37,343 bases of DNA from the NCBI GenBank assembly GCA_947629265.1, contig CANRCZ010000001.1, positions 1 to 37,343 of the forward strand, given 5' to 3'. Source of the DNA: an uncultured Bacilli bacterium. Lineage in GTDB: Bacteria; Bacillota_I; Bacilli_A; RF39; UBA660. Below are positions 13,407-37,343 of the stretch, one piece after another. The notes under the pieces are model-generated. The model had not been told where the DNA came from, searched no databases, and saw only the letters and a list, made by a program, of their open reading frames with translations. The position numbers and the translations under genes were made by a program. Numbering within the stretch: position 1 is the stretch's first letter; every line of letters starts with the position of its first letter.

Positions 13407-14129
13407 ATGATAGAGTTTATTGTTTATGATGATAAAAAAGATTTTTGTTTAATGGTAGAAAAAGCTATTAAAAAGGTTACTAGTAGTACTAAGACAACAT
13501 ATAATATAAATTCTTTCACCAGCTATACTAAGGAATTTGATGATTTGATAAATCAAAATATGGCTTCTAAAATTTATATATTAGATATTGAAATTCCAGA
13601 TAGTATTTCAGGTATTGATATCGCTAGAAAGATTAGAAAAAAGGATTGGAATAGTATTATTATTTTTGTAACATCTCATGTTGAGATGGGTTATGAAGCT
13701 TTAAAAGCACAGATTATGTTACTTGATTTTATATGTAAACAAAATGATTGTTCTAATTCATTGATTAAAACTTTAAAGAAAGCTATCAACAAAGTTAATG
13801 ATAAGAAAGTTATGATCTTTGAAAGTGACGGTATAACTAATAGAGTTTATATTGATGATATATTGTATGTTAAAAGAGATTCAATTGATAGAAAGTGTAT
13901 AATTAAAACGACTTATAATGAAATAATTATCAATAAAAATTTAAGTGAGATAATGGATATGTTAGATAGTAGATTTTATTTATCACATAGGAGTTGTTTA
14001 ATCAATACAGATAAAATTAGAACTGTTGATTGGAAGAATAATATCATTTATTTTGAAAATAATGATACGACCGATTATTTGTCTAGAGATAAAAGGAAAG
14101 GGTTAAAAGAATATGTTGGAAATCATTAG
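13407..14129 (+). CDS. agrA: LytTR-family response regulator, AgrA-like
   Basis: A 240-residue two-domain regulator. The receiver domain (1-125) has the acidic pair Asp8-Asp9, the phospho-acceptor Asp60 in YILDIEIPD and Thr/Ser plus downstream basic residues as in AgrA. The LytTR DNA-binding domain (about 140-236) includes YIDDILYVKRDS, the conserved FYLSHRSCLIN block and KRKGLKEYV. AgrA proteins bind pairs of 9-bp direct repeats about two helical turns apart; such a pair lies before agrB at 16413-16443. RBS AAAGGAG. The reading frame overlaps the kinase gene by 17 bases, so the pair is co-translated. agrA precedes agrC here, opposite to Staphylococcus (BDCA). Confidence 0.92.
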   Translation: MIEFIVYDDKKDFCLMVEKAIKKVTSSTKTTYNINSFTSYTKEFDDLINQNMASKIYILDIEIPDSISGIDIARKIRKKDWNSIIIFVTSHVEMGYEALKAQIMLLDFICKQNDCSNSLIKTLKKAINKVNDKKVMIFESDGITNRVYIDDILYVKRDSIDRKCIIKTTYNEIIINKNLSEIMDMLDSRFYLSHRSCLINTDKIRTVDWKNNIIYFENNDTTDYLSRDKRKGLKEYVGNH

Positions 14130-15420
14130 TTTATTTATAATATGTAATTTATCTTTTTTAGTAAGTTATTATATATTTTCTGTTATAACTGGTCATGAAA
14201 TAATTATAAATAAGAAATTAATTGTATATGGCATAATATTTACTATGACATATATAATTGCAACTTTAACAGAAGCAGTTAAACTTAAAACTATATTAAT
14301 AAATGTTATATCAAATTTAATGTATATGGATATACACCATGAAAAATTAAATAAAACTATTTTAGCAGCACTTATTAATTATATACTTATGATGTTAAGT
14401 GAAACAGTATTTACTTTAGTTTTCATATATGGAATAGGTGGTATATTTACTATTGATTTTGTAACTAAAGATTTTATAGGAATAATCATTTCAAATGTAA
14501 TTATTTTGTTATTAGTTTTAATAATGATTAAGCTTAAATTTATTAGAAATATTTTTAGAAGAATAGTAAAGTGGTATGATGGTAGTAAACTAATCAATAT
14601 AATATTATTAATAATAGTAGCATTTAGTTTAATAGCATTTTTTACATATCAAAATTTCATTGGTATTCATTCAATTGTTTATTTTATTGAGGTCAATATA
14701 GCATTATTAGCAATATTCATATTTGTTATAGGCTATTTTAATCAACTCGCTAGAAATAAACACATTCTATTAGATTATGACCAATTAATGGAATATGTTA
14801 AAACTTATGAAAAGGTTCTTGATGAAAAGAGTAAACAACAACATGAATATAAAAATCAACTTATATTAGTAGGTTCAATGGTTAAGAGTAATGATAAAAA
14901 AGTAATTGATTATATCAATAAACTAGTAAAGATCGAAGATGAACAAGAAAATTATCAATATTTAACCAAACTTAAAAATTTACCAACAGGTGGTTTAAAA
15001 GGTTTTATTATGTATAAAATTGACGTCATGTTACAAAAAGGTATAATACCATTTATTGATATATCTGCTACTTTAACTGAAGATACTTGGAAAATATGTG
15101 AAAATCATCTTCAAGATATTAGTAGAGCATTAGGTGTATATTTGGATAATGCTATTGAAGCAGCATGTGAGTCAGAAAATAAATATATTTTACTTGATGC
15201 TGAATATTGCGATGATACAATAATATTTACTATTTCAAATACTTATAAAGGAAGAATTGATTTTACTAAAATCGATAAAAATGATTATACAACTAAAGGA
15301 AAAGGTAGAGGACATGGTCTAGCCTTGATAAAAGATATTATTGATAAGAATAATAAATTAGAACAATATAGAGAATTAAGTGGTATTTATTATGTTCAAA
15401 AGTTAATCATAAAGAAATAA
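14113..15420 (+). CDS. agrC: AgrC-like peptide-sensing histidine kinase (HPK10 type)
   Basis: 435 residues: six to seven hydrophobic helices in the first ~210 residues (peptide-sensing domain), a linker helix, the H-box HEYKNQL with phospho-accepting His244, an N-box with LDNAIEA (Asn346), and a G-box KGRGHGLALIKDII (about 397-410) of a GHKL ATPase. This HEYKN/LDNAIEA/GxGLG arrangement is typical of AgrC-type kinases responding to cyclic peptides. The start ATG lies inside the agrA end, with AAAGGGTTAAAAGA upstream. The partner peptide and its processing enzyme are encoded on the opposite strand immediately downstream. The call is firm by domains and context. Confidence 0.92.
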   Translation: MLEIISLFIICNLSFLVSYYIFSVITGHEIIINKKLIVYGIIFTMTYIIATLTEAVKLKTILINVISNLMYMDIHHEKLNKTILAALINYILMMLSETVFTLVFIYGIGGIFTIDFVTKDFIGIIISNVIILLLVLIMIKLKFIRNIFRRIVKWYDGSKLINIILLIIVAFSLIAFFTYQNFIGIHSIVYFIEVNIALLAIFIFVIGYFNQLARNKHILLDYDQLMEYVKTYEKVLDEKSKQQHEYKNQLILVGSMVKSNDKKVIDYINKLVKIEDEQENYQYLTKLKNLPTGGLKGFIMYKIDVMLQKGIIPFIDISATLTEDTWKICENHLQDISRALGVYLDNAIEAACESENKYILLDAEYCDDTIIFTISNTYKGRIDFTKIDKNDYTTKGKGRGHGLALIKDIIDKNNKLEQYRELSGIYYVQKLIIKK

Positions 15421-15500: not shown

Positions 15501-15522
15501 AAAAAAGAGCCAAAGCTCTTAT
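15501..15522 (-). terminator. Terminator after agrD
   Basis: On the minus strand AAGAGC, loop TTTG, GCTCTT and a T run. Plus-strand arms are 15505-15510 and 15515-15520. It stands 13 bases after the agrD stop. Confidence 0.85.
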
Positions 15523-15533
15523 TAAATGTATAA

Positions 15534-15647
15534 TTATTTTTCAATAATGCTTTTTGGTGCTTCTGGTTCATCAATCCAACCAAATACACATAAAGTTGAT
15601 ACACTAGCTCCAAAGTTAGCTATAGCTTCTAAAATTGCTGATAACAT
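15534..15647 (-). CDS. agrD: AgrD-like autoinducing peptide precursor
   Basis: A 37-residue ORF. The minus-strand leader reads AGGAGG, 7 bases, ATG (15647); an upstream in-frame ATG at 15653 is only one base from the AGGAGG and is less likely. The peptide has three AgrD parts: an amphipathic N-terminal helix (LSAILEAIANFGA), a core STLCVFGWI, and an acidic C-terminal recognition tail DEPEAPKSIIEK, comparable to DEVEVPKEL in Staphylococcus. AgrB would cut before the tail and form a thiolactone from the single cysteine (Cys20). Aligned on the DE..P tail the ring would be CVFGWI (six residues), one more than the staphylococcal five; if cleavage is after Trp it is CVFGW. It lies 53 bases after agrB on the same strand. 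Confidence 0.9.
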   Translation of the reverse strand: MLSAILEAIANFGASVSTLCVFGWIDEPEAPKSIIEK

Positions 15648-15700
15648 CGTCATACCTCCTTCTTTTTATTCTTCTATATTAAGCATAAAGCCTAATACCA

Positions 15701-16300
15701 TTATTGTTCATATAATAAATAATTATTATAAGTAAAGTGAAACAATTTATAACTTATTGGTAAAATCATAAATATTTCAACAAAGATACCAGCCATTATA
15801 AGATTAGAAATAAGTTCATTTTTACAAGTAAGAAAAGCGATAACTAAAATAATACAGTTTATAGTTGTAACAAATTTAAGTTTCTCTCTTCTTTCTTTTT
15901 TTATTATTGGCTTTTTCTTGGTATCAGCTGGAGCATACCTATATATTAAGATAATATCGATTATTGCAATTATAATCTTTAAATTAAAAGGAATTACAAC
16001 ATATCTTAATAAGAAAGGTAATACTAAGAAGATCAATGAAGAAGAACTTAAACATATAGAACTTTTACTTGCATGTAGTCCCGCTCCAGGAATTCTTAAA
16101 ATATTGAAAGTTATAAATAATATAAACATTTCCTTAAAAATATTTAAGATAATCGCCAGAGTAAAAATTATAATTGTTTTGGTAATAAAGATATAAAATC
16201 CCTCTAAACCGTAACGGAATTCTTCTAATTTAACATCATCGATGGAAGGATTGCTATTCTTAATTACTGCCAATGAATAGTTCAAAAAATTCTCTTTCAT
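15701..16300 (-). CDS. agrB: AgrB-like accessory gene regulator (AIP-processing membrane protease)
   Basis: AgrB is an integral-membrane cysteine endopeptidase that removes the AgrD tail and cyclises the peptide. I place the start at 16300 (199 residues, typical) because GGTGAGG lies 3 bases before this ATG; an in-frame ATG at 16369 lacks such a site. The catalytic pair is present: His76 in RIPGAGLHA and Cys83 in KSSIC, seven residues apart as in the family. YRYAPADTKKKPI is the conserved basic/proline loop, and several hydrophobic helices follow. It is transcribed toward agrC, with agrD downstream. The call is firm. Confidence 0.95.
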   Translation of the reverse strand: MKENFLNYSLAVIKNSNPSIDDVKLEEFRYGLEGFYIFITKTIIIFTLAIILNIFKEMFILFITFNILRIPGAGLHASKSSICLSSSSLIFLVLPFLLRYVVIPFNLKIIIAIIDIILIYRYAPADTKKKPIIKKERREKLKFVTTINCIILVIAFLTCKNELISNLIMAGIFVEIFMILPISYKLFHFTYNNYLLYEQ

Positions 16301-16412: not shown

Positions 16413-16443
16413 TTGCAATTCAGACATAATAAATTACAATTCA
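16413..16443. promoter_or_regulatory. Direct repeat pair, candidate AgrA/LytTR binding site
   Basis: TTGCAATTCA (16413-16422) and TTACAATTCA (16434-16443) are spaced 21 bases start to start, two helical turns, as AgrA-type sites are. ACAATTCAA matches 6 of 9 positions of the staphylococcal AgrA half-site ACAGTTAAG. It lies upstream of agrB. Confidence 0.5.
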
Positions 16444-16498
16444 AATAAAACACTTGCATGGATGTTTTAAATTTGGTAAATTAAGAAGGCAGTACAAA

Positions 16499-16602: not shown

Positions 16603-16815
16603 ATGAAAGGTAAAGTTAAATGGTTTAATAACGACAAAGGCTATGGATTTATCGAGCATAGTAGTGGCGAAGATATATTTGTACACTACTCTTCAATATT
16701 GACACCAGGATACAAAACCTTAGTCGAAGGACAATACGTCGAATTTGAACTTGTTAGAACAGATAAAGGATTACAAGCCAAGAACGTCGTAGAAATAAAG
16801 ACCACTTTAGTATAG
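16603..16815 (+). CDS. cspA: Cold-shock protein, CspA family
   Basis: A 70-residue single cold-shock domain that binds single-stranded RNA/DNA. MKGKVKWFNNDKGYGFIEH contains RNP1 (KGYGFI, 12-17) and is followed by RNP2 (DIFVHYS, about 24-30). The length is slightly above the usual 66-67. RBS GAAGGGAG is 11 bases before the ATG, a longer gap than usual. The mRNA would have a leader of about 110-120 bases with a strong stem (16499-16576). It is divergent from agrB. Confidence 0.95.
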   Translation: MKGKVKWFNNDKGYGFIEHSSGEDIFVHYSSILTPGYKTLVEGQYVEFELVRTDKGLQAKNVVEIKTTLV

Positions 16816-36345: not shown

Positions 36346-37343
36346 ATGAAGAGATTTTTTATTAAAAAAGGGATTATATTTGGTTTAGTTATTGGGTTTT
36401 TATTAGCTTTAACCACTAGTTATGCTATTGATAGTCTTAATAGTGAGAGTGTAAGTTATACTAAAGGTGATAAAGTGATGAGTGTTAAACAGGCTTTGGA
36501 TGATTTAATTTTAAAGGTTAATGAAAAACAGGATATTGTTTTACCTTATGTTTTAGAGGTCGGATTAAATTATACTGAGGAAACAGTTTATCTTGAGAAA
36601 AAAATAGATACTTTATTAGGAAATTTGGTAAGTACGTATAATGGTACTTTATCAGTAGATAAATTAAATAAGATAAAGAATGCAACTTTAAAATGGGAAA
36701 GCGCTAGTAGTGATATCGCTAGTATTGATGGTAACAAAATAAAGGGTAACAAAGTAGGTAAGACAGTTTTATATGGAAAGCTAGATGATGAAAGAGTTGT
36801 AGCTGTATCAGTGTCAGTTGTTAATACAAGTTCTTTAATAGATAAAGTAACTGTTGGCGATTATGTGGCTTATGATGCTGGTACGTGGAGTGAAGATAAA
36901 GATAGACCAACAACGAATGGAACTTTTGGCGGATATAAAAAAGGTCAAAGTAAGAATGCTAGTATAAAAGGATGTTGGTATGATACTGGATCATCATTAC
37001 AAGGATGGCGAGTGTTATCAAAAAATACTGAAAGTAAAACAGTAACTTTAGTCCATGCTGGTCAATCCGAATGCTATGATCATCAAACAAATCCAACTAG
37101 TAGTATAGAGTTAATGAACAGTGAGGCTCAAAAGCAATATGTAAATACAAAATATGCCACCTCAGCCCATGTATTAAATAAAAGTGAGATTGAAATTTTT
37201 GCCCCAAGTGATACTTTAAGATATATTGGTAACACATGGTATTGGTTAGCGGATGTTTATACTTGTTGTGGTGCTTTGTATGCTATTAATCAAAGTGGTT
37301 CAATCTCTGCTTCACAACATACCTTTAGTATTCGTCCAGTAGT
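36346..37343 (+). CDS. Surface protein paralog 3 (cut by window end)
   Basis: The frame is open from ATG 36346 (AAAGGAGGAA upstream) to the window edge, 332 full codons. Signal/anchor MKRFFIKKGIIFGLVIGFLL, then SVSYTKGDKVMSVKQALDDL, the same stalk motif as in paralogs 1 and 2. A Big_2-type Ig-like domain (about 60-165, LKWESASSDIASIDGNKI) leads to the C-terminal domain: YDAGTWSEDKDRPTTNGTFG, LQGWRVLSK, LVHAGQSECYDH, a variable section after YWLA, and IRPVV at the edge. There is no G tract; the start is plain. The variable section is rich in NNT codons (GAT GTT TAT ACT TGT TGT GGT GCT). It is likely controlled by the divergent XRE regulator. Confidence 0.88.
   Translation, partial: MKRFFIKKGIIFGLVIGFLLALTTSYAIDSLNSESVSYTKGDKVMSVKQALDDLILKVNEKQDIVLPYVLEVGLNYTEETVYLEKKIDTLLGNLVSTYNGTLSVDKLNKIKNATLKWESASSDIASIDGNKIKGNKVGKTVLYGKLDDERVVAVSVSVVNTSSLIDKVTVGDYVAYDAGTWSEDKDRPTTNGTFGGYKKGQSKNASIKGCWYDTGSSLQGWRVLSKNTESKTVTLVHAGQSECYDHQTNPTSSIELMNSEAQKQYVNTKYATSAHVLNKSEIEIFAPSDTLRYIGNTWYWLADVYTCCGALYAINQSGSISASQHTFSIRPV

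Follow-up and report, generated by a model that had tools for sequence, protein, structure and literature searches.

The agr loci covered by one review have the order agrBDCA or are split into an agrBD and an agrCA unit (PMC12312760). Five-residue rings make up the majority of characterised autoinducing peptides (AIPs) (PMC4916163, PMC12312760), and a ring of six is known from C. acetobutylicum (CVLVTL; PMC12312760, PMC4916163). Trp-containing rings are known from C. perfringens (CLWFT), L. plantarum (CVGIW) and C. difficile (CPWII) (PMC12312760). In S. aureus, R70, G75, H77 and C84 of AgrB are needed for proteolysis, and AgrB cleaves AgrD directly before an Asp, with D33 and E34 essential for the cleavage (PMC10196373). 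LytTR regulators bind 9-bp repeats, which are usually 12 bp apart and so follow a 21-bp period (PMC6193735).

An open reading frame (ORF) of 37 codons in the window (the whole stretch of DNA analysed, 37,343 nucleotides) is very likely the agrD of a complete agr-type quorum-sensing circuit, with a predicted six-residue ring CVFGWI and predicted AgrA feedback through a repeat upstream of agrB. The following features were assigned.

13407-14129, plus strand: agrA-like response regulator gene, receiver (PF00072) and LytTR (PF04397) domains, overlapping the start of agrC
14113-15420, plus strand: agrC-like receptor histidine kinase gene, GHKL ATPase, HEYKN motif (HATPase_c_5, 51.1 bits), converging on agrD
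15505-15520, minus strand: intrinsic-terminator-like hairpin AAGAGC-TTTG-GCTCTT at the end of agrBD, with a run of T after it (folding energy -7.2 kcal/mol, z -2.86)
15534-15647, minus strand: agrD, 37-aa AIP propeptide (translation, TIGR04223 match, kept behind agrB in relatives)
15655-15660, minus strand: ribosome-binding site AGGAGG of agrD, perfect, 7 nt 5' of the ATG
15701-16300, minus strand: agrB, predicted AgrD-processing membrane cysteine peptidase (PF04647, 112.5 bits; alignment of homologues)
16416-16449, minus strand: predicted AgrA site, direct repeat TTTATTTGAATTG-N8-TATGTCTGAATTG of 21-bp period, with its start some 150 bp before the ATG of agrB
16603-16815, plus strand: cspA-type cold-shock gene, divergent, sharing the intergenic region with agrB (PF00313, 90.4 bits)

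The agrD gene, its partner agrB and their relatives

The 37-aa product of the minus-strand ORF was translated as MLSAILEAIANFGASVSTLCVFGWIDEPEAPKSIIEK, with a hydrophobic/amphipathic N-terminus, a single Cys and the tail DEPEAPKS. It could be divided into a predicted leader (MLSAILEAIANFGASVSTL), ring (CVFGWI, C20 to I25) and tail (DEPEAPKSIIEK), and part of the leader may be retained as an exocyclic tail. The features of the AgrD family, namely a hydrophobic or amphipathic leader, a Cys at the ring start, an acidic D/E-E..P tail and an adjoining agrB, were all found here. TIGR04223 (quorum_AgrD), the curated AgrD model of NCBI with 38 positions, was matched with 20.2 bits, above its curated cut-off of 19, while the Pfam family of staphylococcal AgrD (PF05931) gave only 13.7 bits, under its cut-off of 22.7. 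This ORF was the only one above the TIGR04223 cut-off in the whole 1.22-Mb genome. Judged by its sequence and its context, it is a genuine agrD.

The first-pass annotation was correct in the coordinates, the length and the AGGAGG, and the strand, which it left unstated, is minus. The AgrD pattern it described (helix, one Cys, DEPEAPKS) was borne out by the TIGR04223 match, the adjoining agrB and the relatives. Its description of the gene as unannotatable by length was wrong, since agrD can be annotated through a match that exceeds the curated cut-off.

The agrB gene is single-copy in the genome and ends 53 nt before agrD. Its reading frame is open to 16369, but the start shared by the aligned relatives is the ATG at 16300 (199 aa). 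R69, G74, H76 and C83 of AgrB were invariant in 21 aligned homologues and match R70, G75, H77 and C84 of S. aureus. By sequence, no solved structure of an AgrB relative was found in the PDB set.

Relatives of AgrB were found in 41 of 98 genomes searched, mostly of the window's own family. When public genomes were scanned with the AgrB alignment, 401 relatives came up, 80 of which were fetched; the same scan with a single AgrB as query found none. The fetched relatives were metagenome-assembled genomes labelled uncultured Bacilli, Tenericutes, Erysipelotrichaceae and similar, whose isolate names pointed to sources that included the guts of rabbits, ruminants and chickens. Four carried the Candidatus genus names Faecisoma, Pelethosoma, Coprosoma and Aphodocola, and Coprosoma, Faecisoma and Aphodocola have been assigned to the GTDB order RF39 (PMC8035907), so that the genome of the window probably belongs to RF39 as well. 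No report of AgrD in RF39 was found in the open-licence literature searched.

Downstream of agrB (within 700 nt), an ORF preceded by a ribosome-binding site and encoding a Cys/Ser ring with an acidic tail was present in 100 of 108 distinct agrB loci; the control scans gave 5/108 for the antisense strand of these regions and 0/108 for the sequence upstream of agrB. Among the eight loci without a call, three showed an AgrD by eye (L067, L078, L140), as did L066 with Thr in place of Cys; in L046 and L136 the contig ends inside the leader. The other two (L068, L075) are from a different family, in which the genes are codirectional, and an AgrD-like ORF with C-I-G-F was listed downstream in their genomes. 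The Cys and the tail, whose loss in relatives had been set beforehand as grounds for rejecting the gene, were both retained across about 100 loci.

Ring size and ring sequences

Over these loci the Cys, the D/E-E pair and the P (+5) were almost invariant, and the five remaining ring residues were hypervariable. The invariance of Cys and D/E-E was partly required by the search pattern, whereas the six-residue spacing and the ring variability were not, so more weight falls on the counts of ring length and on the variability profile. Six ring residues were present in 95 of the 103 AgrD peptides of relatives, and 94 of these started at Cys. When the peptides were aligned on the tail, entropy was 2.5-3.3 bits at ring positions -5 to -1, then dropped to 0.2 at D and 0.0 at E, with 0.63 at P.

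In the window the Cys is likewise followed by five residues before D/E-E, not by four, which by sequence places this AgrD outside the five-residue class. A staphylococcal-type ring CVFGW in a genuine AgrD, with the Ile left on the tail, would agree with the size of most characterised AIPs, but it is unlikely: the residue just before D, at 2.64 bits, varied as much as the rest of the ring and the tail began sharply at D, exactly Cys plus five preceded D/E-E in 94/103 relatives, and six-residue rings do exist, as in C. acetobutylicum. The ring CVFGWI (C20 to I25) is favoured over CVFGW because conservation jumps exactly at the D that follows the cleavage site of S. aureus AgrB, this length being predicted on the assumption that the cleavage point is fixed relative to D-E-P. 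The same counts and the same boundary support the six-residue reading C-V-F-G-W-I that had been proposed for this ORF.

Ring sequences were almost never shared, with 92 distinct ones among the 94 six-residue Cys rings, and 94% of the ring residues were hydrophobic. CVFGWI itself was absent from all fetched relatives, and the peptide is therefore new in this set. The novelty first claimed for the ring held to that extent; a Trp-containing ring is ordinary, with Trp in 61 of the 92 distinct six-residue rings and in rings described elsewhere.

Two relatives had another residue at the position of the ring Cys. Ser was found in L074 (SYFWLS before EEPECPKS) and Thr in L066 (TWLFVW before DETEYPED). 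Ser rings are known lactones, and a literature search found no Thr ring among described AIPs.

Receptor genes, gene layout and the upstream repeat

The agrA and agrC genes lie downstream of agrBD on the opposite strand, and wherever the flank of a family relative was long enough, this convergent agrBD/agrAC layout was seen there too. The only two exceptions (L068, L075) were members of the other family. No description of a convergent layout was found in the open-licence literature searched. AgrA and AgrC both scored far under the staphylococcal equivalog cut-offs (57.6 bits for AgrC with the full-length model), and no LytTR protein besides AgrA was found in the genome. The first 210 residues of AgrC were less conserved than the remainder in 26 of 26 full-length homologues (0.31-0.32 vs 0.46-0.47 for the closest genus members), a variability of the sensor half as in a diversifying receptor.

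Some loci contained duplicated genes. A tandem agrD pair with differing rings stood behind one agrB in L056, L113 and L126 (CVIIFL and CWIWYM in L126). Two matches to the AgrC C-terminal part were present in each of L045, L058, L096, L092, L102, L113, L126, L134 and L142, beside one agrA in those inspected; some of these are the same genome twice (L045/L096).

It is very improbable that the cyclic peptide made by AgrBD is not a signal for its own AgrC and acts instead as, for example, a bacteriocin-like or interference peptide. The strongly hydrophobic rings would suit such a role, but agrC and agrA accompanied agrBD in all relatives with sufficient flanking sequence, the sensor half of AgrC varies as a receptor would, and two agrC matches occurred in two of the three two-agrD loci (the third is at a contig end), these being small numbers with nine two-agrC loci overall. 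The reading of the ORF as a chance frame, or as a decayed one, is barely credible, the mere 37 codons and weak Pfam score standing against a curated-model match, a perfect ribosome-binding site, intact partners, conservation in about 100 loci and a near-zero background.

For the signal circuit, a predicted regulatory element was found upstream of agrB. It reads TTTATTTGAATTG TAATTTAT TATGTCTGAATTG, two half-sites repeated with a period of 21 bp, and the exact form TGAATTG-N14-TGAATTG occurs once in the genome, at agrB. The motif obtained from 35 training loci had an information content of 5.55 (3.6-4.0 in shuffled sequences), and its score in 68 held-out loci reached 7.54 at lag 21, the remaining lags between 12 and 33 giving 3.36-4.44. 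The motif is degenerate and the held-out test is not fully independent, since training and test loci share one lineage; the lag is still specific. The median repeat position was 155 bp before the agrB start. Positive feedback of AgrA on agrBD is thus predicted, and for agrBD only, because no clear lag-21 signal was present upstream of agrA (3.89 vs 2.97-3.77 at other lags). No -10 element was found at a fixed distance behind the repeat.

A wider AgrA regulon was considered and rejected. TGAATTG-N14-TGAATTG with up to two mismatches gave 15 hits in the genome, fewer than the 30 of the reversed-pattern control, and the agrB site alone was exact, so no regulon can be claimed. The repeat lies between agrB and cspA and could for this reason affect cspA too. 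By eye, a cspA-like sequence was seen upstream of agrB again in several relatives.

Elsewhere in the window, three paralogous and probably secreted proteins were encoded (703-1524, 1672-2742 and 36346-37341), which probably form a surface-protein family. Each had a hydrophobic segment at the N-terminus, and after it came an SVSYT/VKxALDDL stretch common to all three. One contained a Big_2 domain, apart from which no Pfam family was above its cut-off in the three.

Proposed circuit and comparison with known systems

From the gene, its ribosome-binding site, the partner genes, the catalytic residues, the conservation boundary, the repeat and the layout, all read from the DNA, we infer the cleavage point, ring chemistry, sensing and autoregulation, and with them the whole mature peptide. 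AgrB would cleave AgrD between Ile25 and Asp26 (C-V-F-G-W-I | D-E-P), and a thiolactone would be closed between the Cys20 thiol and the Ile25 carboxyl, giving C-V-F-G-W-I as a ring of six residues, to which a short exocyclic tail from ...VSTL may or may not remain attached. The leader would be trimmed by a second protease. AgrC would sense the released peptide through its variable membrane domain and phosphorylate AgrA; AgrA would then bind the 21-bp-period repeat upstream of agrB and raise agrBD expression, closing a positive feedback loop.

One gene of the CAAX-protease family (PF02517) was observed in the genome (G000:C7:45031-45306). MroQ of S. aureus belongs to the CAAX-protease family, and the gene is thus a possible leader-trimming protease, a lead only in so broad a family.

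A broader proposal is possible and is put forward tentatively. The RF39-order gut Bacilli may share one agr lineage with six-residue AIPs, convergent agrBD/agrAC and almost as many pherotypes as species, a few members of which would have changed Cys to Ser (L074) or Thr (L066), the latter predicting a Thr-linked lactone AIP. Such a lineage would add an intact agr system for uncultured small-genome gut bacteria, for which none was described in the open-licence literature searched. About ninety concrete, synthesizable cyclic-peptide sequences were obtained, together with a rule that can be tested (a ring of six residues, cleavage before D-E), which would broaden a field mostly built on five-residue rings. 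In staphylococci, an AIP can inhibit AgrC in a different strain or species, so RF39-type peptides may likewise affect gut neighbours.

Six-residue rings are already known from C. acetobutylicum, and the CVFGWI locus is a further agr system. Compared with the first-pass annotation, the analysis adds a predicted lineage-wide six-residue rule, the convergent layout, the putative AgrA repeat and the Ser and Thr variants.

With S. aureus agrBDCA (AIP-1 to AIP-4) the locus shares the AgrB catalytic residues, an AgrD composed of leader, Cys ring and DE..P tail, an AgrC receptor kinase, a LytTR regulator AgrA, and variability of both signal and sensor. S. aureus has a five-residue ring, codirectional agrBDCA and a divergent RNAIII, whereas here a ring of six is predicted and agrBD converges with agrAC. 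The locus falls outside the staphylococcal type, as the window and its relatives are convergent and no RNAIII-like RNA was among the Rfam matches in the window. Listeria monocytogenes agrBDCA (AIP CFMFV) has in common the Agr circuit, a short AIP and a LytTR AgrA, and differs in its five-residue ring, established by MS/MS (PMC4916163), and in its agrBDCA operon. Enterococcus faecalis Fsr (GBAP) follows the same logic of processing and sensing, but with a nine-residue lactone ring formed through Ser and the order fsrBDCA (PMC12312760). C. acetobutylicum Agr shares the six-residue ring [CVLVTL], and there too agrBD and agrCA are listed as two units (PMC12312760), a likeness in the division into units; ring sequence and lineage are different.
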